Virus record (IMG/VR): IMGVR_UViG_3300043410_000291
Coordinates: 1 to 29,044 of that record
Direction: 5' to 3' (one strand)
Length of the DNA: 29,044 nt
Source: a virus
The notes below the pieces were generated by a model. That model saw nothing but the letters and a program-made list of their open reading frames with translations. It had not been told where the DNA came from and did no database searches. Every line of letters begins with the position of its first letter. The first letter of the stretch is position 1. This document shows, one piece after another, positions 1-28,603 of the stretch. A program made the translations under genes and the position numbers.

Positions 1-3000
1 CCATGGTTATTACAATCCAATGAAGCACCAAAGTTTTCACCAGGACGCAAATCATCTAAATTGTCAATAGGATATAGTTGCTGTGTCAATACAAACTGAA
101 CACTGTCAACCGTAACGATATCACCAGCTTTCATGCCAATAGTACCAATGATAATCAAGTTGCTAATTACAACAAATTTACTAGGTGACAGCAACGAACC
201 GTTAACATATATTCTAGTTTGATTGTTAGGTGTAAACGCTAATGCAATTACGTAAGGACTATATTTACCCTGGTCATATTGTACTTCTACGTTCTGGCGT
301 AGTCTATCATAATAATAAACTGTGCCAGTGTGTTCTTGTGTTAGACTATAGTTATCTAACGGAGCGCCAATAAACACCGTACTGCCGTCATAATTTGTTG
401 CTAGACTAGCACCAAATGAAGACCCTGATTTTACAGGACCAACACCATCATACCCCAAGAATCCTGATATGCTAAAGTTAATAGTAGCAAAGTAAATGTA
501 TGAGTCGGCTGCTGCTGTGTACTCGATTGGTTCTGCGGTATAGAACGTGGTTTTATTACTTGCAGAATTATATGTTGATGTGACAACTGTATGCACAGTC
601 TCGTCACTGAATGTAACTTTATAAACATTTGCCCCAACTGCTACTGCTGGTTCGGATGGTGCAAAGAACATTTCAGTTGTGTAGAAAGTTGTTTCGTTTG
701 CTGATATATTATATGATTCTGCCGATATCGTGACTAGTCTAGTACTGACAGGACCTGTGTTAGCAAAAGCAACTATGTCACCGTTTGTCAATAAACTTCT
801 TCTATCACCTGATACAATGAAATAATCTTGACCTCTAGGTACATTGTATTTTACAGTGAAACCCACCGGATCATATTCAGTAACAAAGCTAACTCGTTGT
901 CCATTCTCAATCATGCTTCTAACATCACCTGATACAACGAACTTTTTATCTTTCAGAATAGTCGGGCTTGCTAAATCAAGACCTGAACTAGTATAAGTTA
1001 ATGTCGAATCTCTTTGGAATGCTATCACTGTATCTTCGGTCTTTGCACCAATATACAATATATTACCGTCACCTGAAATATCCATTGCTTCTCCGGCTCT
1101 TCCACCGATTAAAGTAATAGTCTGCTCTAATGTAATGCTATCAATGACACCGTACTCAGGTAGTCTGTAAACAAGGATTTGAGACAAGGTGTTGCCTGGC
1201 TTTGATATTATCATCAAGTCTTGGCTGTATGTAATATACGTACCAAACTCGCCACCTTCAGTGATTACACCACGAACATAGAATACCCCATTAGGAGTCT
1301 TTGCATAATGATAAACAGTACCAGTGCCAACATCAGACACAAAATACCCAACTTCAGGTACATATGCAACTGCCGATCCAAACTGCTGTGTGGCAGTGAT
1401 AGGATCTAAGAATGTATATTCGTAGTTGTTTGTCTTTTCATAAACTGTCCAACTTCCCTGAACGTTTTGGTCCACCCATACTCTATTAGTCGCATACTCT
1501 GCATTCAATAAAGGTAGTGAACTAATGTCTCTTGCAGTTGCTACACGTTGGCTCTGTAATAAGAAACTCAAACCAGTTCCATTGATAGATGTTACAGTAT
1601 TATCAATTGTTAGTGGGATGATAATCGACATGAAATCAACTACATATGATACTAAGTGATAGCCATCAACTCGTGCATCGAAATTAAGAATGCCCATAGC
1701 CTGATTTTCATACAACCCATGTGGCTTATTAAAGAATACAGTAGTAGTTCCATTTAAGTTATTAACTACACTAGTGACTTGTGCTCCAGTTGATACTGGT
1801 GTGAATACTTGCCATGTATTATCTTTATCTGCTAGCCATAGATATTCATTTTTATAGACGGATGCAATCGCAGTGTCCGCTAAGTCATCTAATGTATATC
1901 CAATTTCAACTACGTCATCTAAATTCACATATCCTGCACTAGGTAATTTTTCTACATAGTCTTGTGATAGTGTAGGCATGATATTTGCCGAAGTGATAGG
2001 TCTACCGTAATTAACTATATTTGATAATGGAATCTGTTGCTGTGCATCAATTACTGCGGTCCCCTTAACAATACCAACGATACTAGGGTTACCAGTCAAC
2101 ACTGCTTCATTTAACGTAAATTCAGTAAAGTTTTGATTCAACAAACCACCGTACTCAGTAGACTTGATAGCCCAGTTTTCGTGTGCGGTATAGTTCAATG
2201 TGTTTTGATGTAGGTTGATACCTTGCAACTTAGTAACACTAGCCACTGTTCCTTTAGAGCTAATCATGTCCTTATAAACATTAACTTGTGTGGAATCTGT
2301 TAAGTCGGCATCTACTAGATAGTTTCTAGGTCTGTAGCCAATCAACGAGAAGCCTAAAAGGTCTTCGTCATTCTCTAAATTAGGTTCAGTTGTGCTATAG
2401 AACATTGTCGCTTCATATGCTCTAGTACTAGGGTTAGGTAACAATCCCTTTTGAATATCGTTGTAACTTGTTTTGATCCATTGATTATAATCGAACGAAG
2501 TACTTGGTAAAATTACAATAGCATCAGCCATGTAATATTCATTTTTGTATTTTACAATCGTGCCCTTAGTGTACTTTGCATTCTCTTGCCAATTTTCAAT
2601 GTTATCTTGATTTAAGATAAAGCCGGCGGCATTTACTTGACCGTTCCACTCGGCAGTCTTCTTACCTTTAACCAAGATACGCTGTTGGCGCAAGCCAGTG
2701 GTTAAATTGTAAATCACATCATTAAACACTGTTGAGTTATCAAAGATAACCACATGTTCTACTGTACTCATGTTTGCTCTTAACAAACATAAGCTATCAC
2801 CTTCATTTAATGATTTGATGCTGAACTCAGTACCATTGCGGTTAATGAACAAGTCATTCAATGCGATTGGAATTAAGTTTTGGTTTAAAATAAAGTTTTC
2901 TTTGTACATTGTCAATGGTTGAACAATGTTGTTTTCTTTATTAATTACAATATTTCTTGCACATGGGTTCAAGTTGATAGAACTACCTACTTCCCAACCA

Positions 3001-6000
3001 GTTTGTGCCCAGTGAATCGCTTCCGCTGTCATCTGATCCCAGTTTAACTCGATGCCATTTTCAACATCATTGAACAACATACCTTGACTATTCAAGTACA
3101 ATCCGTATCCGCGCAAGAAATCAGCCAAGTCATCCAATGTGCGGAATTCTTGACCATATGGAACATACTTAGTTTTAGAATAGTATGTCTTTGGAACCTT
3201 AACGGTAAAGTTGTCAATGGTTATCGTATCGTACAAACCGTTATTAGACGAAACCTGAGAAACGAAATATGTTTTGTTCTGACTATTACCGTATACTCTG
3301 TATCCGTTTTCAGAACGTTGTACAATAACTGAACTAAAAATGATAGTGTCGTTTGGTTCATTGTTATACAACATGATAGAGTAACTATCATCAGGAATCA
3401 ACAAGCTATTGTTTGCGCTAGTATTAGAACCCTTCTCAACATAGAAGTTCAACAAGTCTTTATCACTAAATCCGGCTAATCTATATGTCAATCTAACATC
3501 TAAGTTCTTAACCAATGTTGAAATTGTATCTGTACCGTTAACACCGAATTGGTACAAATAATCAACTAACCAGTTAACATAACTATGAACTGCTGCGCCA
3601 GAACCATATACCTTCAATGAAGTAACAGTATCACTGTAACGATTATCATACAAGTAACGGTTGAATTCTGCGTTGTACTTATAGTGGTCGATGTTCTTAC
3701 CTAAAGAGAAGAACTTTGCCGGTTTTGTCAATGCAATGATACGCATTAAGTCGAACGGCCATGAGCTACTCTTTCTATAGCTGTATTCGACTGGGCCCAT
3801 GTCACCAACTGACCAATTAGTGTTGAATGTACTTCTGTCATATGAACCTAATAAGAATTCAAACGGAGACTTTAGATTACCAGTAGAATCAACCGGTATG
3901 ATATCTAACAAGCCATCACGAATTCGTTTAGGATTAACGTATGCATCACCGTCGTTCCAGATGTATCCATTAGCAATATCTTGCCACATGAACAAGTTAT
4001 CACCTGTGTATGGTGCTGCACCGTATCGAGTATCCCACCATGATGGCTTGCTAGTTAATCCTAGTATTTCCCATGGCATAGTGTGAGGGTTACTTGTGTC
4101 ATACAACCATAAGAATACACCTCTCCAGTTACCTTGTGCAATAGTCTTATTATCGAACACAAAGGTAGATTGGTTGTAGTTATATGTATATGGATTGGTT
4201 GAATTGTAATACTGTGTGGTATAGTCGATTCTATTCAAACCAACCCAATTCAAATATTGCAATGAATATAAAGTATTGAATGTCGCAAAATCTACACCAA
4301 CATCTCTGAATTGACCTGGAACTACTTCATCGTATGAGACAGGAACTAGTGCATCAACTTTCAAGTTGTTATAGATTCTAGTTTCAAACTCTAACAGAAC
4401 CTTGTCTCTGTAATCTGCTAAAATACCGTCTTCATATGTTCCATACAACTTTGTGTACGAGCCATCATGCCCGCGGATAAAATACGCAGGGTTAATATAT
4501 GTTTCATCTAAGATGACACTAGGAACAAACGCAGGATATAGACCCAACTTAGTAGGAGTGTTAGGAACAAAGCTACCGTATGTTTGGTCATATTCTTTGA
4601 TAGTAACAATATCATTGTTCACTAAATCCATAGTGACAATTAAACTAGGTTTAGTATCAGATACTACGTAATCTACTCCTCGAATCAGTTGCGTTGTTTC
4701 GATTACGCCGTTTACTCGTCTTGTCAAGTAAACCAATACACCATAATAGTTAGCGTTATTGAAATCGTAAACTCTACTTAAGTTAAATGTACTTGTATCT
4801 AGTTGTGTTTTAAATGAATATGAATTAGTGATGTACGCATTCTTAGATGGAATCATGTCAGACCAAAAGAATGGGTTAGCGTCAATCTTTGTTTCTGAAA
4901 TCTTTTCCATCACATCATCTAGGATGTATGATGGTGATTCTAATGAAGTATATTCGTTGTTAGTCAACACATAGATTAACGATGCTTTAAATTTTGCATA
5001 TTCGTTGCTATTAAATGCCAACGCATCAAAGAAATTGTTGTCATTATTACGTAAGAACGCAGCCGCGTTTACGACTGACGCACTGTTTTGAATAATTTTT
5101 GTACCGTATGGCACAACATTACCTAAATCTCGATAGTTGTTAGGTCCAAATGCCACACCAACAAAGTCTGGCGCATTGTTACAAATGCTCTTGTAGTGAC
5201 CTCTAATGTCACCTAAGTTAATAGAAGTGATTTGGTCGTTGAACGGGTTGTGGTCTAAGTTAGACGGGATTTGATAATATCCCGTGACCGAAGACTGGTC
5301 ACTATACAACATTATATCAACATGTGTGCCAATTACAGGTGTTACAGCCAATACAATAGTAGTTGTGTTCTCACCAACTGTCATTGTAAATTCAGTATTG
5401 GCAATTCTTGCATTATCAACGTATACAACTACAACCGGCCATGGTGTAGATGATTGTGCTTTTGCTGCAATATCTAGAACATAAGTTGATGGATCAACTG
5501 CGGTAGCACTTGCAGTCAAGTTAAACACTTGATATTGGAAACTCTCAGCCGGAGCTGTCTGCCATCCTAGCATTCTAGTATAGTCTGCTCTATTTGCATA
5601 CATGTACACATAACCCGCATTGACTGCCTGAGTGAGTGATTCACTGTTCAATACATAATCAAATGTTTGGGTATTCAATGAAACATTGAATGCTATATCC
5701 CCTAAGTTATTCAATGAGCTATACTTGATTGGGAACCCCAAAACCGGATCATTTGCACCAGTACCAGTTGCATACTCAAACAATGTGCAACCCTCAAAAG
5801 TATTACTTGGATAGAAATCTTTATCACCATAACTAACACCGTTCGAATCGAATACATCAAATGTAGGTGGTTGGTTAACTCTTTCTTTCTGTTGCCCAAC
5901 GATCCAATCTGTACCATCAAAATATACAGTACGACCTTGGTATACACTACCTTGAGTAATTACAGTCTGATTATCAAAACTTACATTACCTGATACAGCA

Positions 6001-8234
6001 AGAGATAATGTTACGACTGGTTCCGAAACACCAGTAACTGAAGTTAATGCAACTTCCCAAATCTTATTACGGACTTCAACGTCAGTATCACCTGCAAAGA
6101 TAATAGTTGCTCCGTCATATAGATATGACGTTGCACCGTCTGGATTGAATTCAGATACAGGTCGACCTGCAACTTGGTTAAACGCATCAGTGATAGTGAA
6201 GTTAACAAAGCTAGTATTTGGTTTTGCTTCAGTTCCGCTATTGTAAAGTTTTAGATTAGGATAGAATTCTAGAATAGGGCGCTTTGCTCTACTGTCTGGA
6301 TTGCCCAATGCATTTGTACTAATCGGACTTGCAGGTGCATTTGCAATAGTTGTATTCAATACATCAATATGGAACCAACGATTACTGCGACTCCATGCGT
6401 TTTTGTTGACACTATTTCTAGCAATAGTAATATAGTCAGGATCTGCTGGGTAGTATAAAGTTTCGCCATATGAATATGCGTCATATGGATTGCCGTCAAA
6501 CGGAGTAGTGTACGCAGTGCCGAATGGTTCTGGTATATCAAACTCATCGACCGGAAGCAATTCAATGCTAGTACCAACACCTTCAACGTAGAATTGTGTT
6601 TTGTTATATGATTCTGGGAAGACTGTACTAGTGAATTGAACTTTCAATCCGTTGGTAAGTTTAATACCATTAGGACTTGTATAATTCTTTTTACCCAAGA
6701 TATCAGAAATATCAATTACAGTGTCAGTTGGTTGATCTACTAGCTTAATAATACCATAGATTTCAGCATTAGAGCCATCTTGGTAGTACAAGGTATCTAA
6801 TGCAGCGGTTAGCATCGGGATCAAAATGATTTCGCTATAACTATTCTTAGCAAAATTTCTACCAATATACTGATTACCATAACGTACAGTGATCTTTGTA
6901 TTGTCAACAATAGTAGCAATTTCTTCTAGATTAATAACAAGTTCATCTTGATCGTTACCTACTAAGTTTACTTTATAGAAGTGTTTGTTAATTTCGCTAG
7001 GGACTGAACCTTCGAACTGTCCATAATCAGTAGTTCCGGTCATTAATCCAGTGGCATCAGTTAGTGCCCAGTCACCTGATAATGCAGGACCACCGGGTTC
7101 AATTGATACAGTAAATGTGGTGCTACTATCAATAGTTCTAATAAAATAAGTTATACTATTCTTTATGTTACCGAACAATGCACCCGTGAATGTAATTGCC
7201 CCGTTGATATCAAAACCACTAGTAGATGCACATGTTAATAAATTTGTACCAGACTCTGTTTCAGTTATTGTAGTTGAAACACTAGGTGTTAGTGAATTTG
7301 AATCGAACACGTCCCCATAGAACGTACTAATCATGCCCATAGTTCCTGGCTTTGTGCCATAGAACAATAATGTCTTATCCTCGATATTTACACCATCAAT
7401 AGTAGACAACTCAGAGTAACGCTTACCGTTAATGTCTTTGAATGCTAAAGTGGTTACCAAATCAACATATTGATTTCCCGGATATACATAGTCATCTTGT
7501 GCTGTTGACAACGGTACTTCGAAAGTAACAGTACCATTATTTGTTCCGTTATTATCAACACCTAGTACTTCACGTGTACTGAAGTTAGGTCTGGAAGGAT
7601 CGGCACCACTTAGACCTTGTTGAGTTTGAATATAGAAGTTACTAGCTTGTTCAACCTCAAATTGGTATATACCACCTCTAACCAAAGTGATAACTGGATT
7701 CAATTGGTCTACTTTAACAATGTCATTATTGAATCTATAACCCAATGGTTGTTCAACTACGTTGTAAATCAAAGACTTGTACAAAGTAGTTGTTGTTAAA
7801 CTTACTGGCTCAGGGCCAGTTGGCAACCAATAGTATTGGCTGTAGTTGATAACTTTATCTAAGTCTACAAAACTATCCCATGAATAGAATTGATTGCTGA
7901 ATAAACTATCGTTGTTTTTAGTTGTTCCGCCTTGCAAAGTTAAGCTATCCAACAAACCTGGATAGGTAACTAAGTCGACCGCAGATGAAGTATCATTCTT
8001 CTTAAAAATAACTGCAGGATCTAATTGATAGTTAGTTCTGACTTGACTAGGTTCAACTAGATATTTGTCTGATGCACTTACACCATATCCAAATTTGCTA
8101 CCCACGTATCCTTGAATTCTTTTAAAGTCCGGCTGCTGTACTAGTTGGTCTAGTGTAGCTGACAGAAATTGATTATTAGTTTTTGTTCTAAAAATTTCTG
8201 GTAAGAAATCAATTGTTCTAACTTTTGTTACCAT
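1..8234 (-). CDS. Giant baseplate wedge / tail structural protein at the gp7 position (partial)
   Basis: One uninterrupted leftward frame starts at ATG 8234 and is still open at the window edge, giving more than 2744 residues. It begins 14 nt after the gp6 stop, with TAGG about 10 nt before the ATG. The N-terminus (MVTKVRTIDFLPEIFRTKTN) and an internal block near residues 1250-1280 containing GHDGSYTKLYGTYEDGILAD are of a type I recognise from large virion proteins of marine T4-like phages. Its place directly after gp6 matches T4 gene 7 (wedge protein), but it is over 2.5 times the length of T4 gp7. From about residue 2285 it has FG-GAP/beta-propeller-like units: FGSAVAYVPEVGYFV, EFGTYITYSQDLMII, AMDISGDGNILYIG, FGASLATNYDGSTVFIGAP (about 2607), and FGASLD at the edge. 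That suggests a propeller-type adhesive or structural domain. The virion role is secure in outline; equivalence to gp7 is inferred from position. Confidence 0.8.
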   Translation of the reverse strand, partial: MVTKVRTIDFLPEIFRTKTNNQFLSATLDQLVQQPDFKRIQGYVGSKFGYGVSASDKYLVEPSQVRTNYQLDPAVIFKKNDTSSAVDLVTYPGLLDSLTLQGGTTKNNDSLFSNQFYSWDSFVDLDKVINYSQYYWLPTGPEPVSLTTTTLYKSLIYNVVEQPLGYRFNNDIVKVDQLNPVITLVRGGIYQFEVEQASNFYIQTQQGLSGADPSRPNFSTREVLGVDNNGTNNGTVTFEVPLSTAQDDYVYPGNQYVDLVTTLAFKDINGKRYSELSTIDGVNIEDKTLLFYGTKPGTMGMISTFYGDVFDSNSLTPSVSTTITETESGTNLLTCASTSGFDINGAITFTGALFGNIKNSITYFIRTIDSSTTFTVSIEPGGPALSGDWALTDATGLMTGTTDYGQFEGSVPSEINKHFYKVNLVGNDQDELVINLEEIATIVDNTKITVRYGNQYIGRNFAKNSYSEIILIPMLTAALDTLYYQDGSNAEIYGIIKLVDQPTDTVIDISDILGKKNYTSPNGIKLTNGLKVQFTSTVFPESYNKTQFYVEGVGTSIELLPVDEFDIPEPFGTAYTTPFDGNPYDAYSYGETLYYPADPDYITIARNSVNKNAWSRSNRWFHIDVLNTTIANAPASPISTNALGNPDSRAKRPILEFYPNLKLYNSGTEAKPNTSFVNFTITDAFNQVAGRPVSEFNPDGATSYLYDGATIIFAGDTDVEVRNKIWEVALTSVTGVSEPVVTLSLAVSGNVSFDNQTVITQGSVYQGRTVYFDGTDWIVGQQKERVNQPPTFDVFDSNGVSYGDKDFYPSNTFEGCTLFEYATGTGANDPVLGFPIKYSSLNNLGDIAFNVSLNTQTFDYVLNSESLTQAVNAGYVYMYANRADYTRMLGWQTAPAESFQYQVFNLTASATAVDPSTYVLDIAAKAQSSTPWPVVVVYVDNARIANTEFTMTVGENTTTIVLAVTPVIGTHVDIMLYSDQSSVTGYYQIPSNLDHNPFNDQITSINLGDIRGHYKSICNNAPDFVGVAFGPNNYRDLGNVVPYGTKIIQNSASVVNAAAFLRNNDNNFFDALAFNSNEYAKFKASLIYVLTNNEYTSLESPSYILDDVMEKISETKIDANPFFWSDMIPSKNAYITNSYSFKTQLDTSTFNLSRVYDFNNANYYGVLVYLTRRVNGVIETTQLIRGVDYVVSDTKPSLIVTMDLVNNDIVTIKEYDQTYGSFVPNTPTKLGLYPAFVPSVILDETYINPAYFIRGHDGSYTKLYGTYEDGILADYRDKVLLEFETRIYNNLKVDALVPVSYDEVVPGQFRDVGVDFATFNTLYSLQYLNWVGLNRIDYTTQYYNSTNPYTYNYNQSTFVFDNKTIAQGNWRGVFLWLYDTSNPHTMPWEILGLTSKPSWWDTRYGAAPYTGDNLFMWQDIANGYIWNDGDAYVNPKRIRDGLLDIIPVDSTGNLKSPFEFLLGSYDRSTFNTNWSVGDMGPVEYSYRKSSSWPFDLMRIIALTKPAKFFSLGKNIDHYKYNAEFNRYLYDNRYSDTVTSLKVYGSGAAVHSYVNWLVDYLYQFGVNGTDTISTLVKNLDVRLTYRLAGFSDKDLLNFYVEKGSNTSANNSLLIPDDSYSIMLYNNEPNDTIIFSSVIVQRSENGYRVYGNSQNKTYFVSQVSSNNGLYDTITIDNFTVKVPKTYYSKTKYVPYGQEFRTLDDLADFLRGYGLYLNSQGMLFNDVENGIELNWDQMTAEAIHWAQTGWEVGSSINLNPCARNIVINKENNIVQPLTMYKENFILNQNLIPIALNDLFINRNGTEFSIKSLNEGDSLCLLRANMSTVEHVVIFDNSTVFNDVIYNLTTGLRQQRILVKGKKTAEWNGQVNAAGFILNQDNIENWQENAKYTKGTIVKYKNEYYMADAIVILPSTSFDYNQWIKTSYNDIQKGLLPNPSTRAYEATMFYSTTEPNLENDEDLLGFSLIGYRPRNYLVDADLTDSTQVNVYKDMISSKGTVASVTKLQGINLHQNTLNYTAHENWAIKSTEYGGLLNQNFTEFTLNEAVLTGNPSIVGIVKGTAVIDAQQQIPLSNIVNYGRPITSANIMPTLSQDYVEKLPSAGYVNLDDVVEIGYTLDDLADTAIASVYKNEYLWLADKDNTWQVFTPVSTGAQVTSVVNNLNGTTTVFFNKPHGLYENQAMGILNFDARVDGYHLVSYVVDFMSIIIPLTIDNTVTSINGTGLSFLLQSQRVATARDISSLPLLNAEYATNRVWVDQNVQGSWTVYEKTNNYEYTFLDPITATQQFGSAVAYVPEVGYFVSDVGTGTVYHYAKTPNGVFYVRGVITEGGEFGTYITYSQDLMIISKPGNTLSQILVYRLPEYGVIDSITLEQTITLIGGRAGEAMDISGDGNILYIGAKTEDTVIAFQRDSTLTYTSSGLDLASPTILKDKKFVVSGDVRSMIENGQRVSFVTEYDPVGFTVKYNVPRGQDYFIVSGDRRSLLTNGDIVAFANTGPVSTRLVTISAESYNISANETTFYTTEMFFAPSEPAVAVGANVYKVTFSDETVHTVVTSTYNSASNKTTFYTAEPIEYTAAADSYIYFATINFSISGFLGYDGVGPVKSGSSFGASLATNYDGSTVFIGAPLDNYSLTQEHTGTVYYYDRLRQNVEVQYDQGKYSPYVIALAFTPNNQTRIYVNGSLLSPSKFVVISNLIIIGTIGMKAGDIVTVDSVQFVLTQQLYPIDNLDDLRPGENFGASLDCNNH

Positions 8235-24176: not shown

Positions 24177-24216
24177 AAAACAACACTTAATAAAAGCAGA
24201 CACAAAGTTCGCATAA

Positions 24217-24224
24217 TATAAAAA
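24217..24224 (+). promoter_or_regulatory. Near-consensus late promoter before the structured intergenic RNA
   Basis: TATAAAAA differs from the T4 late box TATAAATA at one base. A start 6-7 nt downstream, about 24231, falls just before the first hairpins of the structured region. In AT-rich DNA such a match can arise by chance. Confidence 0.35.
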
Positions 24225-24256
24225 TTTGTTGGCTCTACTGAGAGTCCTCCTTGAGA

Positions 24257-24597
24257 TTGTACAGATCGTGCTGTGCCGTCAGAGTCTGGAGTATGCGTAT
24301 ACAGTAATGTGTACGGAACACCGAGAAGGCAATCGGCAAAGCGAACCTTCAATGAGTCTATATCTTATTCTATCTTGCGGATATAGAACATGCGTTGCTG
24401 AACGAAGTATACCCGAGCGAGGTATAATAAGTTCAACTACAGTCCCATAAACTTTACAGGGCAACCGGTGGCGTATAGTAACAAAAACAGTTGACTATAC
24501 GGGGAATAGATGGCTAAGGATGACGGGCATGGCAAGTTTTTCCAATGGTAGTGCTAAATTAGCACTACCATGGCTTCTAAGCGGCAATGTATTCCCC
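24257..24597 (+). ncRNA. Candidate large structured non-coding RNA, unknown family
   Basis: This region between the resolvase gene and the gp26 unit has no convincing protein frame but many stems. They are: 24259-24264/24271-24276 (6 bp); 24296-24302/24309-24315 (7 bp); 24357-24364/24380-24387 (8 bp); 24399-24403/24431-24435 with inner 24408-24413/24421-24426; 24472-24479/24494-24501 (8 bp); and 24501-24508/24590-24597 (8 bp), which encloses the hairpin 24545-24571 (11 bp or more). The first two stems each contain one U-G pair when read on the + strand, and this would be an A-C mismatch on the other strand, so + is the likely sense. The stretch looks richer in G+C than its flanks. It is not a tRNA (no T-arm) and I cannot match it to tmRNA, RNase P RNA or a group I intron. 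Its ends are uncertain. Confidence 0.5.
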
Positions 24598-24645
24598 ACT
24601 AATAAAGTTGTTAAAACATCTCCAGTTTAATTAGTTTGAAAAAAC

Positions 24646-24706
24646 AATACCGAGATTTACGAACGAAGTGAGTAAAGTGAAGGTATTAGATGAACGAAGT
24701 TCATCT
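24646..24706. repeat. Paired inverted repeats with GAACGAAGT core
   Basis: There are two adjacent hairpins. AATACC (24646-24651) pairs with GGTATT (24682-24687), with inner TTTAC (24656-24660)/GTAAA (24672-24676). Directly abutting it, AGATGAAC (24688-24695) pairs with GTTCATCT (24699-24706) around a GAA loop. The 9-mer GAACGAAGT occurs at 24661 and 24692, and also at 24400 in the structured RNA. They lie between convergent genes, so a bidirectional termination role is possible, but neither hairpin has a strong T-run. Confidence 0.55.
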
Positions 24707-24757
24707 TTAAAGTAACCCTAAATAATTGTAATTTAGAATATATGGCTTGGTACGGGA

Positions 24758-24988
24758 TTAGAAGAAGGGAAGTTTCGTATTCTTTGTAGTTTCCAAATTT
24801 GATTCAATCAAATCATTAATGGCTTCTCTTTCGTGGATGCTCATATTCATAATATCATCAAACCCAACACCCCCGCGCATATACCAAGCCATCTTCAACG
24901 CATTTGATTTGATGACTTTACAATCTTCCTCCATCTGATCGATTAACTTCTTAATACCCTCGGAGTCGAGGTATAGAAGTCTTATGCG
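24758..24988 (-). CDS. -1-frame extension of gp26 (MAWYMRGG...LPFF segment), probably made by frameshifting
   Basis: This frame overlaps the end of gp26 and is in its -1 frame. From 24988 it encodes 76 residues: RIRLLYLDSEGIKKLIDQ, then MEEDCKVIKSNALKMAWYMR, then GGVGFDD, ending TKNTKLPFF. The pattern MxWYMRGG, a short helix with an ER motif, then ExTKxxxLPFF, is one I associate with small proteins beside gp26 in T4-like phages; some annotations label them as hub assembly factors. The only in-frame ATG is at 24934, giving a 58-residue product without a good ribosome-binding site. The 25 codons above it, back to a TAA at 25012-25010, contain no ATG, GTG or TTG, yet 18 of them read like protein. 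A gp26 fusion of about 349 residues by -1 frameshift is the simplest reading. Confidence 0.75.
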   Translation of the reverse strand, partial: RIRLLYLDSEGIKKLIDQMEEDCKVIKSNALKMAWYMRGGVGFDDIMNMSIHEREAINDLIESNLETTKNTKLPFF

Positions 24989-24994
24989 AAAAAA
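24946..24994 (-). promoter_or_regulatory. Candidate programmed -1 ribosomal frameshift signal at the end of gp26
   Basis: On the minus strand the gp26 codons GAT TTT TTC GCA TAA contain the heptamer T TTT TTC (24994-24988) in the X XXY YYZ register needed for -1 slippage. After a 7 nt spacer (GCATAAG) comes a hairpin: ACTTCT (24980-24975) with AGAAGT (24951-24946), ATACC (24974-24970) with GGTAT (24958-24954), and TCG (24969-24967) with CGA (24962-24960). The loop is ACTC; there is a bulged TA and a bulged G. That is 14 bp in all. The gp26 stop lies within the spacer. Confidence 0.7.
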
Positions 24995-25806
24995 TCGGAA
25001 ACGTTTATGTTAAAGGGTTGTTGATATTCATGTGAGCAATGAACACACTTAAACTCTAATGGTTTAGTATCAGTAGATTTTTTCAAGTCAATCGTATGGT
25101 CACGAATGGTTTCATATGTCTTCTTGTCACAATTAGATAGGTACTCTTGTATATACTCTTTTTCCATTACAGTAGCTTCTGGAACTTTGATATATTCAAT
25201 TGTTTCGACAACTAATTTCATTGCAAGTTCTTGCATACGACCAATCAACATACTAGTTTGGTTCTCACGCTCATCACTAGCTTCCATGTTTTGTATCATG
25301 GTTAGTGCTTTTTGTACTTCAAACTGTTGTGTGCTTGCCTCATTGATTTTTTGATAATCTAGTGGTTTGAACTTAACTTGAACATCTGAAATATTCAATG
25401 GAACATTGTATGCACCGGCTTTATAGTTACCTAACATAGCTGATAAGTTAACGTCAAACTTGCTAATTTCTTCACAGCTTGGGCATGTGGTTTCAATTTC
25501 CATGTTAGAACCGTTCGTGGCAATTTTGATAGCTAGTAACAATGCATCCAAGTCAATTTGTAGAATTTTCCATGGATCTTTGATGTTTGGAACACAACTT
25601 CTGATAATCTCAGTTACAGCAACCCCGTTGAATAAAGCGTCAGGTGTACGGGTAGTAATCTCATCAATCGCTGTCATGGGATAGATAGGAAGCTCGCCGT
25701 TTTCAGGCATATCAATAATGCCCGGAGCATAGCCCTTACCATTAGATGGTAGTTTAAAGTATAATGCAGGGCGACGGAAGTACTGTTTTAAAGGGTTATT
25801 AGACAT
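24982..25806 (-). CDS. 26: Baseplate hub/tail assembly protein gp26-like
   Basis: This 274-residue protein resembles the T4 gp26-type hub assembly family. It has an N-terminal RRPALYFKLPSNGKGYAPG, IYPMTAIDEITTRTPDALFN at about 41-60, and two Cys pairs, CPSC (C108, C111) and CVHC (C254, C257), that probably bind one zinc. T4 gp26 is about 208 residues. The start ATG 25806 has a strong AGGAGA ribosome-binding site. The gene is divergent from the tape-measure gene, 67 bp away. Its last codons carry the slippery sequence described at 24946-24994. By analogy with lambda G/GT it may act as a tape-measure chaperone, with the shifted form made in smaller amounts; that role is inferred. Confidence 0.8.
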   Translation of the reverse strand: MSNNPLKQYFRRPALYFKLPSNGKGYAPGIIDMPENGELPIYPMTAIDEITTRTPDALFNGVAVTEIIRSCVPNIKDPWKILQIDLDALLLAIKIATNGSNMEIETTCPSCEEISKFDVNLSAMLGNYKAGAYNVPLNISDVQVKFKPLDYQKINEASTQQFEVQKALTMIQNMEASDERENQTSMLIGRMQELAMKLVVETIEYIKVPEATVMEKEYIQEYLSNCDKKTYETIRDHTIDLKKSTDTKPLEFKCVHCSHEYQQPFNINVSDFFA

Positions 25807-25873: not shown

Positions 25874-28603
25874 ATGAGTGAACCTTTTACACCCGAACAA
25901 ACCGAACAACTAAGAGTATTCGTAGACTTGCTTGGCCAAGCCAACCGCGAAGCCGATCCTTCAATCAAAGCTAAACAAGAAGAAGCTAAACGTGCCAAGG
26001 AAGCAGCCGACCGACTGAAGGCAATGTCAGAAACTATCCAAACTAGCGTATTGTCTAGTTTTGGTACTTTCAGTAAAGGATTGATGAGCACTGAGCAGGG
26101 ATTGAACAAGTTCAGTGGTTCTATTACTGGGATTACAAACACAGTAGGATCACTTGCTGGTCAATTTGGCTTTGCTGGTAAAGTTCTAGGTGGATTCATC
26201 AAAGTAATCGGTGAGATCGCCGGTGCTAGTTTAAAGCAAAACGATGACTTAATGAAGTCATACCAGAACCTTAGTGACATGGGATCTGTGGCTACAGGTG
26301 GCTTAGAAGGATTAGCAAACCAATTACATAGAGTAGGTCTTGTTGCTAGTGAAGCAGAGAAATTTGAGAAAGCATTAAAACCAGTCACCGGACAAATGGC
26401 AATGTTTGGTGGTGCAGTAACCCAAGGCAGAGACAAGATGGTCGAAGTCATGGCCGGCTTGATTGGTCCTAATAACCAATTCGAAGTAAGTCTAGCTAGA
26501 TTAGGTTATAGCACACAAGATATTCGTGAAGGCGCAGCCGACTTTGTGCAACGTCAAGCTAGATTAGGTCTAGCACAAACTAAATCAACAGAACAACTAC
26601 GTAACGAATCACACAAGTACATGACAACTATGAAAGAGTTGCAAGAACTTACCGGTATGACTCGTGACGAACAACAAAAAGCAATGGACATGCAAATGGC
26701 TGATGCTCGTATGAGTATTCACTTGCGTGGGTTGAAAGATGATGAAGCTAGAAACTTGTCACAATACTTGGTATTGTATGAACAAAGATTTGGTAAAGAA
26801 GCAGCAGCCGGCTTGAAGGATCGTATTGTTAACGACGGTAGATTGACTACTGATTTGGCAGCTGGATCTTATCAATCAGCTACAACTGCATATGCCGATG
26901 CAATCCAAGCACAAAAGAAGGGTGTGGGTCAATTCGCTGATTCATTGAATAACACTGCTGATGTAGTTAAACGTAGAATGGATACGTTTGGTGGAACATT
27001 AATGACTAGTGATAGTGCCATGAAAGATTATGGCTTAACTAATGAATTGATGAATGGCGCATTAGCAACTAATCGTTCTACTACCGCTGGCGTTACTAAG
27101 CAGCTTAAAGAAATGGGCGAGATTAGTGCTAATGGTAGCGAACGTTTAAATCAAAACATTGTTAATGAACAGAAGATGAGAGCCATCAGAATCATGGGCG
27201 ATAAAGCATTGTATGAAGTTGGCAACTTGACTGTAGGTATGTTCACTAAGTTGATTGATATTGGCTACAAGTTTGCTAAGTTCTTGGCAACTATGATTGA
27301 CAAGATGAGCCCATATATACCGGGCATGAGATCAACTAACATAGCCGCTCAATTTAGAGATATGGATGATATCCAAGCTGATAAAGAAAAGATTGCACAG
27401 TCGAGAGCAGATATAGAACAGCGTTTGGTTGACTCACAACGACAATTAGCTAACACACAAGAAGGTAACCTCTATTATGCATTGAGAATCAAGCAAGAGC
27501 AAGAGAAACAAGAAGAACTAAAAAAGAAACTAACAGAAACACAAGACAAACAAGAAAAGGTTGCACTAGAAACTAAGATTAAAAATTCTCAAGACGAGAT
27601 TACCAAGTTAAAAGAGCAGAAAGAAAAAGTCGATAAAGACAGCAGAGTCGCCAACGAAAATATTGCAAAAGCACATAGAGCCGAAATTGAACGCTTGAAG
27701 AAAGATTTAGAAAAACTCAAGGATGATGAAAATAAAGTCACCGAAGAAGAAGTAGAAATGGCTAAGAAGACAGTACCTGGCTTCGGTACTATGAAGGCAG
27801 ATACTGGATTGAAAATTGCCGGTAGTCAAGGTATGACAACTGATGCCGGAGGCAAAGAAGTAAGTAAAGAAAAACTAGCACAGCGTCAAGCTGCCGCGGC
27901 AGAACTTAACAAAACATCACCAGAACGCTCACAAGAAATCTTGAACAAGATTTCATTTAAGAATAAAGCAGAGAACACAGGTGGAGGTGACGTTGATCCT
28001 GCACTTTATGGTCTAGCTGAAAAGGTAAACGCATTGTTCCCTGGTGCAACATTCACTGCTATGAACGATGTGTATCATCAAGTGAAGCGCCCGAACAGCA
28101 GACATACTGCTGGTAAGGCTCTTGACTTTGCATTAGGTGCAAATGCACCAAGGACACCTGAAGAAGCTGATGCTATCAAAGAGAAACTAAAAGATATCGG
28201 TGCAAGTAAAGTTCTTGATGAGTATTTTAGAGACAAGACTGATAGCACAACCGGCGGTCACTTCCACTTAGAAGTTGCTAGACACGGTGGTTTGTTTTCG
28301 GGCCCGTCGAATGGTTACCCAGTTATGCTTCACGGTAAAGAAAGCGCATGGCCAGAAGAAAAACTTAAAGGGATGTTAGCAGAAGTTCAAAAGGGAAGTA
28401 TCGAACAGTACAAGAATGAACTAATGAACGAGTTGGGCTTGAAAAAGAGTACAACAGCGACTACTACAACACCGACAAATATGGATCCTGAAATGATGTC
28501 CAAATTATATGAAATGATGGAACAGAAGTTCAATACTATGATTTCTAGACTAGAGACAAACAATAGTCTCAGTGAAGACATATTAACATACACTAAGGCT
28601 TAA
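25874..28603 (+). CDS. Tape-measure protein with C-terminal M15-type peptidase domain
   Basis: This 909-residue protein has the features of a tail tape measure: a helical N-terminus, Gly-rich hydrophobic segments (about 92-119, FGFAGKVLGGFIKVIGEIAG, and about 445-480), and a Lys/Glu/Gln-rich coiled coil at about 495-632. T4 gp29 is about 590 residues. A separate domain at about 715-815 carries SRHTAGKALDF (S742, H744, D751) and GHFHLEV (H796, H798), the SxHxxGxAxD and HxH zinc-site motifs of the M15/VanY-like D,D-/L,D-peptidases. It probably cleaves peptidoglycan cross-links during DNA entry. A short amphipathic C-terminal region follows. The ATG 25874 has no clear Shine-Dalgarno. It is divergent from gp26 and precedes the portal gene. 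The tape-measure assignment rests on composition, length and context; the peptidase motifs are direct. Confidence 0.8.
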   Translation: MSEPFTPEQTEQLRVFVDLLGQANREADPSIKAKQEEAKRAKEAADRLKAMSETIQTSVLSSFGTFSKGLMSTEQGLNKFSGSITGITNTVGSLAGQFGFAGKVLGGFIKVIGEIAGASLKQNDDLMKSYQNLSDMGSVATGGLEGLANQLHRVGLVASEAEKFEKALKPVTGQMAMFGGAVTQGRDKMVEVMAGLIGPNNQFEVSLARLGYSTQDIREGAADFVQRQARLGLAQTKSTEQLRNESHKYMTTMKELQELTGMTRDEQQKAMDMQMADARMSIHLRGLKDDEARNLSQYLVLYEQRFGKEAAAGLKDRIVNDGRLTTDLAAGSYQSATTAYADAIQAQKKGVGQFADSLNNTADVVKRRMDTFGGTLMTSDSAMKDYGLTNELMNGALATNRSTTAGVTKQLKEMGEISANGSERLNQNIVNEQKMRAIRIMGDKALYEVGNLTVGMFTKLIDIGYKFAKFLATMIDKMSPYIPGMRSTNIAAQFRDMDDIQADKEKIAQSRADIEQRLVDSQRQLANTQEGNLYYALRIKQEQEKQEELKKKLTETQDKQEKVALETKIKNSQDEITKLKEQKEKVDKDSRVANENIAKAHRAEIERLKKDLEKLKDDENKVTEEEVEMAKKTVPGFGTMKADTGLKIAGSQGMTTDAGGKEVSKEKLAQRQAAAAELNKTSPERSQEILNKISFKNKAENTGGGDVDPALYGLAEKVNALFPGATFTAMNDVYHQVKRPNSRHTAGKALDFALGANAPRTPEEADAIKEKLKDIGASKVLDEYFRDKTDSTTGGHFHLEVARHGGLFSGPSNGYPVMLHGKESAWPEEKLKGMLAEVQKGSIEQYKNELMNELGLKKSTTATTTTPTNMDPEMMSKLYEMMEQKFNTMISRLETNNSLSEDILTYTKA

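Follow-up and report, generated by a model that had tools for sequence, protein, structure and literature searches.

A probable -1 frameshift in gp26 and two predicted tail assembly chaperone isoforms in an uncultivated T4-type phage lineage

The window analysed here is a 29,044-nt stretch of viral DNA (IMG/VR record IMGVR_UViG_3300043410_000291, positions 1 to 29,044), which carries a gp26 homologue and, overlapping its end, a short open reading frame (ORF) in the -1 frame (Table 1). The gp26 ORF is a member of PF12322, with a match of 50.3 bits at a cut-off of 24.5, and was assigned to phrog_150 with an E-value of 6e-17. T4 gp26 and T4 gp51 both belong to PF12322 as well. The nearest match in an isolate showed about 32% identity. 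An AlphaFold2 model of the protein (pLDDT 89.6) resembled models of the T4-like 'baseplate hub assembly protein', and all other fold matches were unnamed phage proteins. When the model was compared with the PDB using Foldseek, no match was obtained at E <= 0.001 and no solved tail assembly chaperone was alike; a profile search of PDB sequences with gp26 gave nothing significant. Since no solved structure matches the gp26 fold, we make no claim of homology to lambda G or HK97 gp13.

Table 1. Features of the gp26 locus and its neighbourhood, in window coordinates
Feature	Position	Strand	Description
gp26 homologue	24982..25806	-	274 aa; PF12322, T4-type short tail assembly chaperone / 'baseplate hub'; phrog_150
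Slippery heptamer T_TTT_TTC	24988..24994	-	invariant in both sets of relatives; codon statistics
Spacer GCATAA	24982..24987	-	6 nt; contains the gp26 stop codon
Putative stimulatory hairpin	24945..24981	-	15 predicted pairs, two small bulges
-1 frame extension	24758..24987	-	76 aa after FF, plus stop; predicted C-terminus of the long form; homology to the T4 gp51 C-terminus
58-aa ORF that a gene finder would call separately	24758..24934	-	inside the extension; ATG at 24934, weak ribosome-binding site
Putative tape measure protein, divergent neighbour	25874..28603	+	909 aa; adjoins gp26 in 35 related loci; putative identity

Read on the minus strand, gp26 ends with ...GTT TCC GAT TTT TTC GCA TAA. 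The original prediction had placed T TTT TTC here in the correct register for a -1 shift, and this is indeed the case (GAT TTT TTC GCA TAA); its coordinates were all accurate. The 0-frame product stops one codon past the slip site. Among the ORFs of the window, TTTTTTC occurs in frame only once in 9121 codon positions. The -1 frame is open from the heptamer to 24758 and reads FFRIRLLYLDSEGIKKLIDQMEEDCKV...MAWYMRGG...LPFF (a longer excerpt, translated from the heptamer, is FFRIRLLYLDSEGIKKLIDQMEEDCKVIKSNALKMAWYMRGG...LPFF). As had been predicted, translation in this frame runs for 18 codons after FF without a start codon and leads into the MAWYMRGG...LPFF segment; the first start in the -1 frame is ATG24934.

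A tape-measure gene had been claimed to lie 67 bp from gp26. The distance was borne out, and the ORF adjoins gp26, but it is transcribed divergently and lies outside the gp26 operon, and its identity as a tape measure is putative. Pfam and PHROG searches with this 909-aa ORF gave no match. Its residues ~700-801 form a domain similar to regions annotated as endolysin, tail fibre protein or lysozyme domain, at about 35-38% identity, in the Erwinia phages Joad and RisingSun and in Pseudomonas phage EL. In KVP40 and HTVC008M, an annotated tail tube gene is followed by gp26, the small ORF and a long ORF; in HTVC008M, the long ORF is annotated as a putative tape measure and follows after one intervening ORF. 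P-SSM2, S-SSM5 and S-PM2 are arranged alike, except that the ORF in place of the tube gene is unannotated. In these five isolates, gp26 and the small ORF have a placement like that of G/GT.

Two further observations concern the surroundings of the locus. A stretch of ~580 nt without recognised genes (24177-24757), bounded by a resolvase-like gene on one side and by the end of the extension on the other, contains a near-perfect inverted repeat at 24544-24572 (ATGGTAGTGCTAA/TTAGCACTACCAT); Rfam and tRNA scans of the window, this stretch included, found nothing. Downstream of baseplate-type genes, a very long minus-strand ORF (3-8234) encodes at least 2744 aa and reaches the end of the contig.

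Conservation of the heptamer was assessed in two sets of relatives. A viral contig scan with the window's gp26 yielded 66 relatives; 61 genes with an intact 3' end, including those of the window and Atu_ph07, constitute the window-type set. The second set comprises 82 cyanophage/KVP40-type genes, namely 80 loci from a scan with the gp26 of cyanophage Syn9 and two KVP40-type loci. TTTTTTC was present at the same place in 61/61 window-type genes and in all 82 genes of the second set, counts that come from related, non-independent sequences and carry no combined p-value, although the two sets are deeply diverged. The conservation that the original prediction had proposed to examine is thus complete for the heptamer. 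Among isolates, T_TTT_TTC was found in Atu_ph07, Phosso, GAP32, PA5oct, 121Q and SCTP-2, as well as in P-SSM2, Syn9, KVP40, phiW-14, YB07, S-SSM5 and S-PM2, while HTVC008M, phiM12 and XacN1 carry T_TTT_TTT in place of T_TTT_TTC. In the jumbo Xanthomonas phage XacN1 (~2440-2690 of its locus), T_TTT_TTT is a possible slip site, and the 0 frame ends about 12 codons beyond it.

A homopolymer run is a typical site of sequencing or assembly errors, and such an error could have split one gene into two frames. This explanation has a practically negligible probability and was rejected, because the same frame relation is shared by well over 100 independent contigs and isolate genomes.

Codon statistics indicate that more than the amino acids is conserved. 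In 123 of 123 distinct genes, FF was encoded by TTT TTC and preceded by a codon ending in T, and the residue before FF varied (D, N or S in one set; S, A, N or G in the other). From the codon usage of the same genes, a T-ending codon followed by TTT TTC is expected at 0.12-0.17 per sequence. Elsewhere in these gp26 genes, Phe-Phe pairs are encoded by mixed codons, and T_TTT_TTY was not found at all in about 30,400 codon positions. The occurrence of T_TTT_TTC therefore exceeds chance by far. These numbers bear on an alternative according to which the small ORF is a separate gene, translated from a start codon that belongs to it or through termination-reinitiation where gp26 stops, and the run of Ts reflects only a conserved Phe-Phe. 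We consider this very improbable. Conservation of Phe-Phe leaves the invariant T + TTT TTC unexplained, and phages with two PF12322 genes retain Phe-Phe yet encode it as TTC TTT (see below).

The properties of the extension also speak to this alternative. The small ORF is annotated separately in P-SSM2, S-PM2, KVP40 and Atu_ph07 (as 'gp51', 'baseplate hub assembly catalyst' or hypothetical protein), and in KVP40, phiM12, phiW-14 and YB07 the gp26 stop overlaps an ATG of the -1 frame (TAATG or TGATG). The start in the window, ATG24934, has a weak predicted ribosome-binding energy (-1.8 kcal/mol compared to -7.3 kcal/mol for gp26); however, many window genes, several real ones among them, score weakly too, so that Shine-Dalgarno strength is not decisive. 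In each of the 61 window-type genes, the -1 frame runs on for about 75 codons past the heptamer, and a W-Y/H/W-M/L-R-G core is found in all extensions except those of two near-identical loci. These two (L052 and L053, 3322-3561) keep the slip site and have a divergent extension without the WYMRGG motif, which ends in ...GKGVQEEL.

For the analysis of selection, 24 distinct members of the subclade to which the window belongs were compared. In codons 2-20 after the slip, pN/pS was lowest for the -1 frame (0.51), with values of 0.82 for frame 0 and 1.44 for the third frame, and pN was below pS in 97%, 67% and 17% of the sequence pairs, respectively. Purifying selection on the codons before the ATG, for which the original prediction had suggested looking, is thus present in the -1 frame. 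Moreover, codons 2-33 contain no ATG, GTG or TTG in 10 of 48 distinct relatives from the window's clade, so that these lack a start ahead of the conserved core, and among the clade's members the first start codon is found at differing positions. In 53 of the 61 genes, the heptamer is preceded at a distance of 1-4 codons by a -1 frame stop, meaning that in these genes the -1 frame can be entered only at or after the slip. An AlphaFold2 model of the extension (pLDDT 88) was helical, with a single helix over residues 11-40 that includes the codons before the start; in this predicted model, initiation at MAWYM would truncate the helix, and initiation at ATG24934 would cut it in half. Pfam and PHROGs searches with the extension gave no significant match. 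Taken together, the selection on pre-ATG codons, the relatives lacking a start, the upstream -1 frame stops and the helix spanning ATG24934 make independent initiation of the small ORF unlikely in the window's clade.

A hairpin starting about 6-7 nt after the heptamer was predicted in the window (-15.3 kcal/mol for 67 nt). The original prediction had described a 7-nt spacer and a 14-bp hairpin; the hairpin itself was recovered, although it was computed as 15 pairs with two bulges and the spacer as 6-7 nt. Compared with dinucleotide shuffles, its stability is unremarkable (z -1.3). Compared with sequences coding for the same -1 frame peptide, a null model that we prefer as more relevant, it is considerably more stable (-14.6 vs -5.1 +/- 2.4 kcal/mol, z -3.9). 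Over 46 distinct sequences, the mean z was -2.31 in codons 2-17 after the slip, and ranged from -0.39 to +0.34 in the remaining extension. The 5' arm begins 6-7 nt past the heptamer in the window's subclade, and the 3' arm shifts between subclades. RNAalifold found no consensus structure for 22 aligned sites, and pair counting for covariation did not exceed shuffles; given these results, we do not claim covariation. Spacer and hairpin, whose conservation had likewise been put forward for examination, are for the most part retained within the window's subclade. Several relatives, namely L028, L031, L037 and L054-L063, have no hairpin. The hairpin is likely to be a lineage-dependent stimulator of slippage.

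The relation of the extension to T4 gp51 was resolved with family profiles, as the single T4 gp51 sequence matched the window-clade profile only weakly. In hhalign comparisons, the window fusion aligned with the cyanophage fusion across the junction (P 97.9%, E 5e-13), and the cyanophage fusion aligned, again across the junction, with the full-length T4 gp51 family (P 98.4%, E 6e-15). The cyanophage extension matched the gp51 C-terminus with P 92% and E 5e-7; the match of the window extension alone was weak (P 28%, E 6e-4). Via this chain of profiles, from window fusion to cyanophage fusion to gp51, the long form carries a gp51-type C-terminal extension. In line with this, the KVP40 record notes that the small ORF resembles the C-terminus of T4 gp51, and cyanophage records label their small ORF gp51.

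Two PF12322 genes were found in T4, RB49, RB43 and two further Straboviridae-type genomes. Every other isolate genome with a match (cyanophages, KVP40 and jumbo phages) and three window-type contigs had one; SCTP-2 had no PF12322 match in this copy-number scan, though its gp26 is recognisable. The slip site tracks copy number, being present with one PF12322 gene and absent with two (5/5 two-copy genomes). Judged from their sequences, the slip site is universal among the one-copy genes examined. The pattern that would have favoured a separate gene, i.e., homologues with a canonical start for the small ORF and no slippery site, was not seen; the slip site is missing only where a second, in-frame fused copy exists. 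At the 3' ends of gp26 from T4 and genome G002 (L096 and L112), Phe-Phe is kept and encoded by the non-slippery TTC TTT. It looks as though the duplication that gave genes 26 and 51 had been followed by disarming of the slip site.

Given that one-copy phages have the slip site, two-copy phages lack it and gp51 corresponds to the long form fused in frame, gp26 and its extension would constitute a chaperone pair like lambda G/GT. The original prediction had proposed such a T4-type counterpart, and it is supported by the gene order in isolates as well as by the extension being homologous to the C-terminus of gp51. The slip site, the coding selection in the -1 frame, this homology and this gene order can be read directly from the sequences. 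We conclude that the gp26 gene very probably encodes two tail assembly chaperone isoforms by means of a -1 frameshift on T_TTT_TTC.

Slippage itself, its rate and the chaperone roles are what we infer, as follows. Most ribosomes would reach the TAA at 24982 and produce the 274-aa short form. A minority would slip back one base, with the tRNA-Phe in the P and A sites re-pairing on TTT_TTT, and in the window's clade the hairpin starting 6 nt downstream would aid this step. Slipped ribosomes would then read the -1 frame to 24758, and the resulting long form of ~349 aa would possess an additional alpha-helical domain. If lambda G/GT is a guide, coating of the tape measure may fall to the short form and recruitment of the tail-tube protein to the long form, the two being made in a set ratio. 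T4 would make the equivalent pair from separate genes, with gene 26 encoding the short form and gene 51, an in-frame fusion, the long form.

In KVP40, phiM12, phiW-14 and YB07, the heptamer (or T_TTT_TTT) coexists with the stop-start overlap, and reinitiation could contribute there in addition. It is conceivable that the slip site works and yields the fusion, that some lineages with a TGATG overlap additionally produce the extension as a free peptide, and that the window makes the fusion only. This seems rather unlikely to us, as T4 gp51 has the extension only as a fusion and the window's clade has no conserved separate start. Production of the two isoforms by frameshifting remains our preferred reading. 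With some hesitation, we lean towards the view that the T_TTT_TTC frameshift of gp26 is ancestral to essentially all T4-type phages, including the jumbo phages and the window's lineage. T4 and its close relatives would be the exception, in which the isoforms became fixed as genes 26 and 51 and the slip site was disarmed to TTC TTT, and several lineages, including that of the window, would have added a hairpin that tunes the ratio.

T4 gp26 and gp51 have been listed as hub assembly chaperones, gp51 being required and absent from the final particle (PMC3004832). Tail assembly chaperone genes of T4-like phages (gp26, gp51) were identified by Vladimirov, Gautam & Davidson (Virology 2022;566:9-15, doi 10.1016/j.virol.2021.11.003), according to articles that cite this work. 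In two of them, poly-T slippery sequences are described as recognised -1 signals in the TAC-N genes of T4-like phages (PMC12846349), and some T4-like phages are said to dispense with frameshifting and to have a short gene plus a fused long gene (PMC10885494). The original prediction knew of no such shift in T4-type gp26, which, judged by these articles, looks wrong. This arrangement has apparently been reported before in T4-like phages, and the window's gp26, not new in principle, is a new, divergent member of the described chaperone type. Aspects that may be new are the breadth, which takes in jumbo phages and an uncultivated clade, the TTC TTT order of T4, read here as disarmed, and the evidence for the hairpin. 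In most of the cyanophage, Vibrio and jumbo-phage genomes that have it, the tiny ORF that follows gp26 and is labelled 'gp51' or hypothetical is probably the end of a long chaperone and not a gene. If so, such records, including those of reference genomes, merit annotation as a frameshift CDS.

In lambda, the short protein G and the minor long form GT, made by a -1 frameshift, are encoded beside the tape-measure gene. The window resembles lambda in its short form and predicted -1 frame long form, and the slippery heptamer differs; neither the PDB profile search nor Foldseek revealed similarity of gp26 to a solved tail assembly chaperone. With respect to P2 E/E+E' and the chaperones of other myophages, e.g., Vandenendeviridae, the window has T_TTT_TTC, whereas an invariant GTTTTT motif is reported for Vandenendeviridae in PMC12846349. 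In contrast to T4-type gp26/gp51, the window has a divergent gp26 from an uncultivated lineage, a longer extension with the WYMRGG motif, a downstream hairpin and a divergently oriented putative tape-measure gene. It shares with T4-type gp26/gp51 the family PF12322 and, as predicted from its sequence, short and long isoforms, the long one with the gp51 C-terminal extension.
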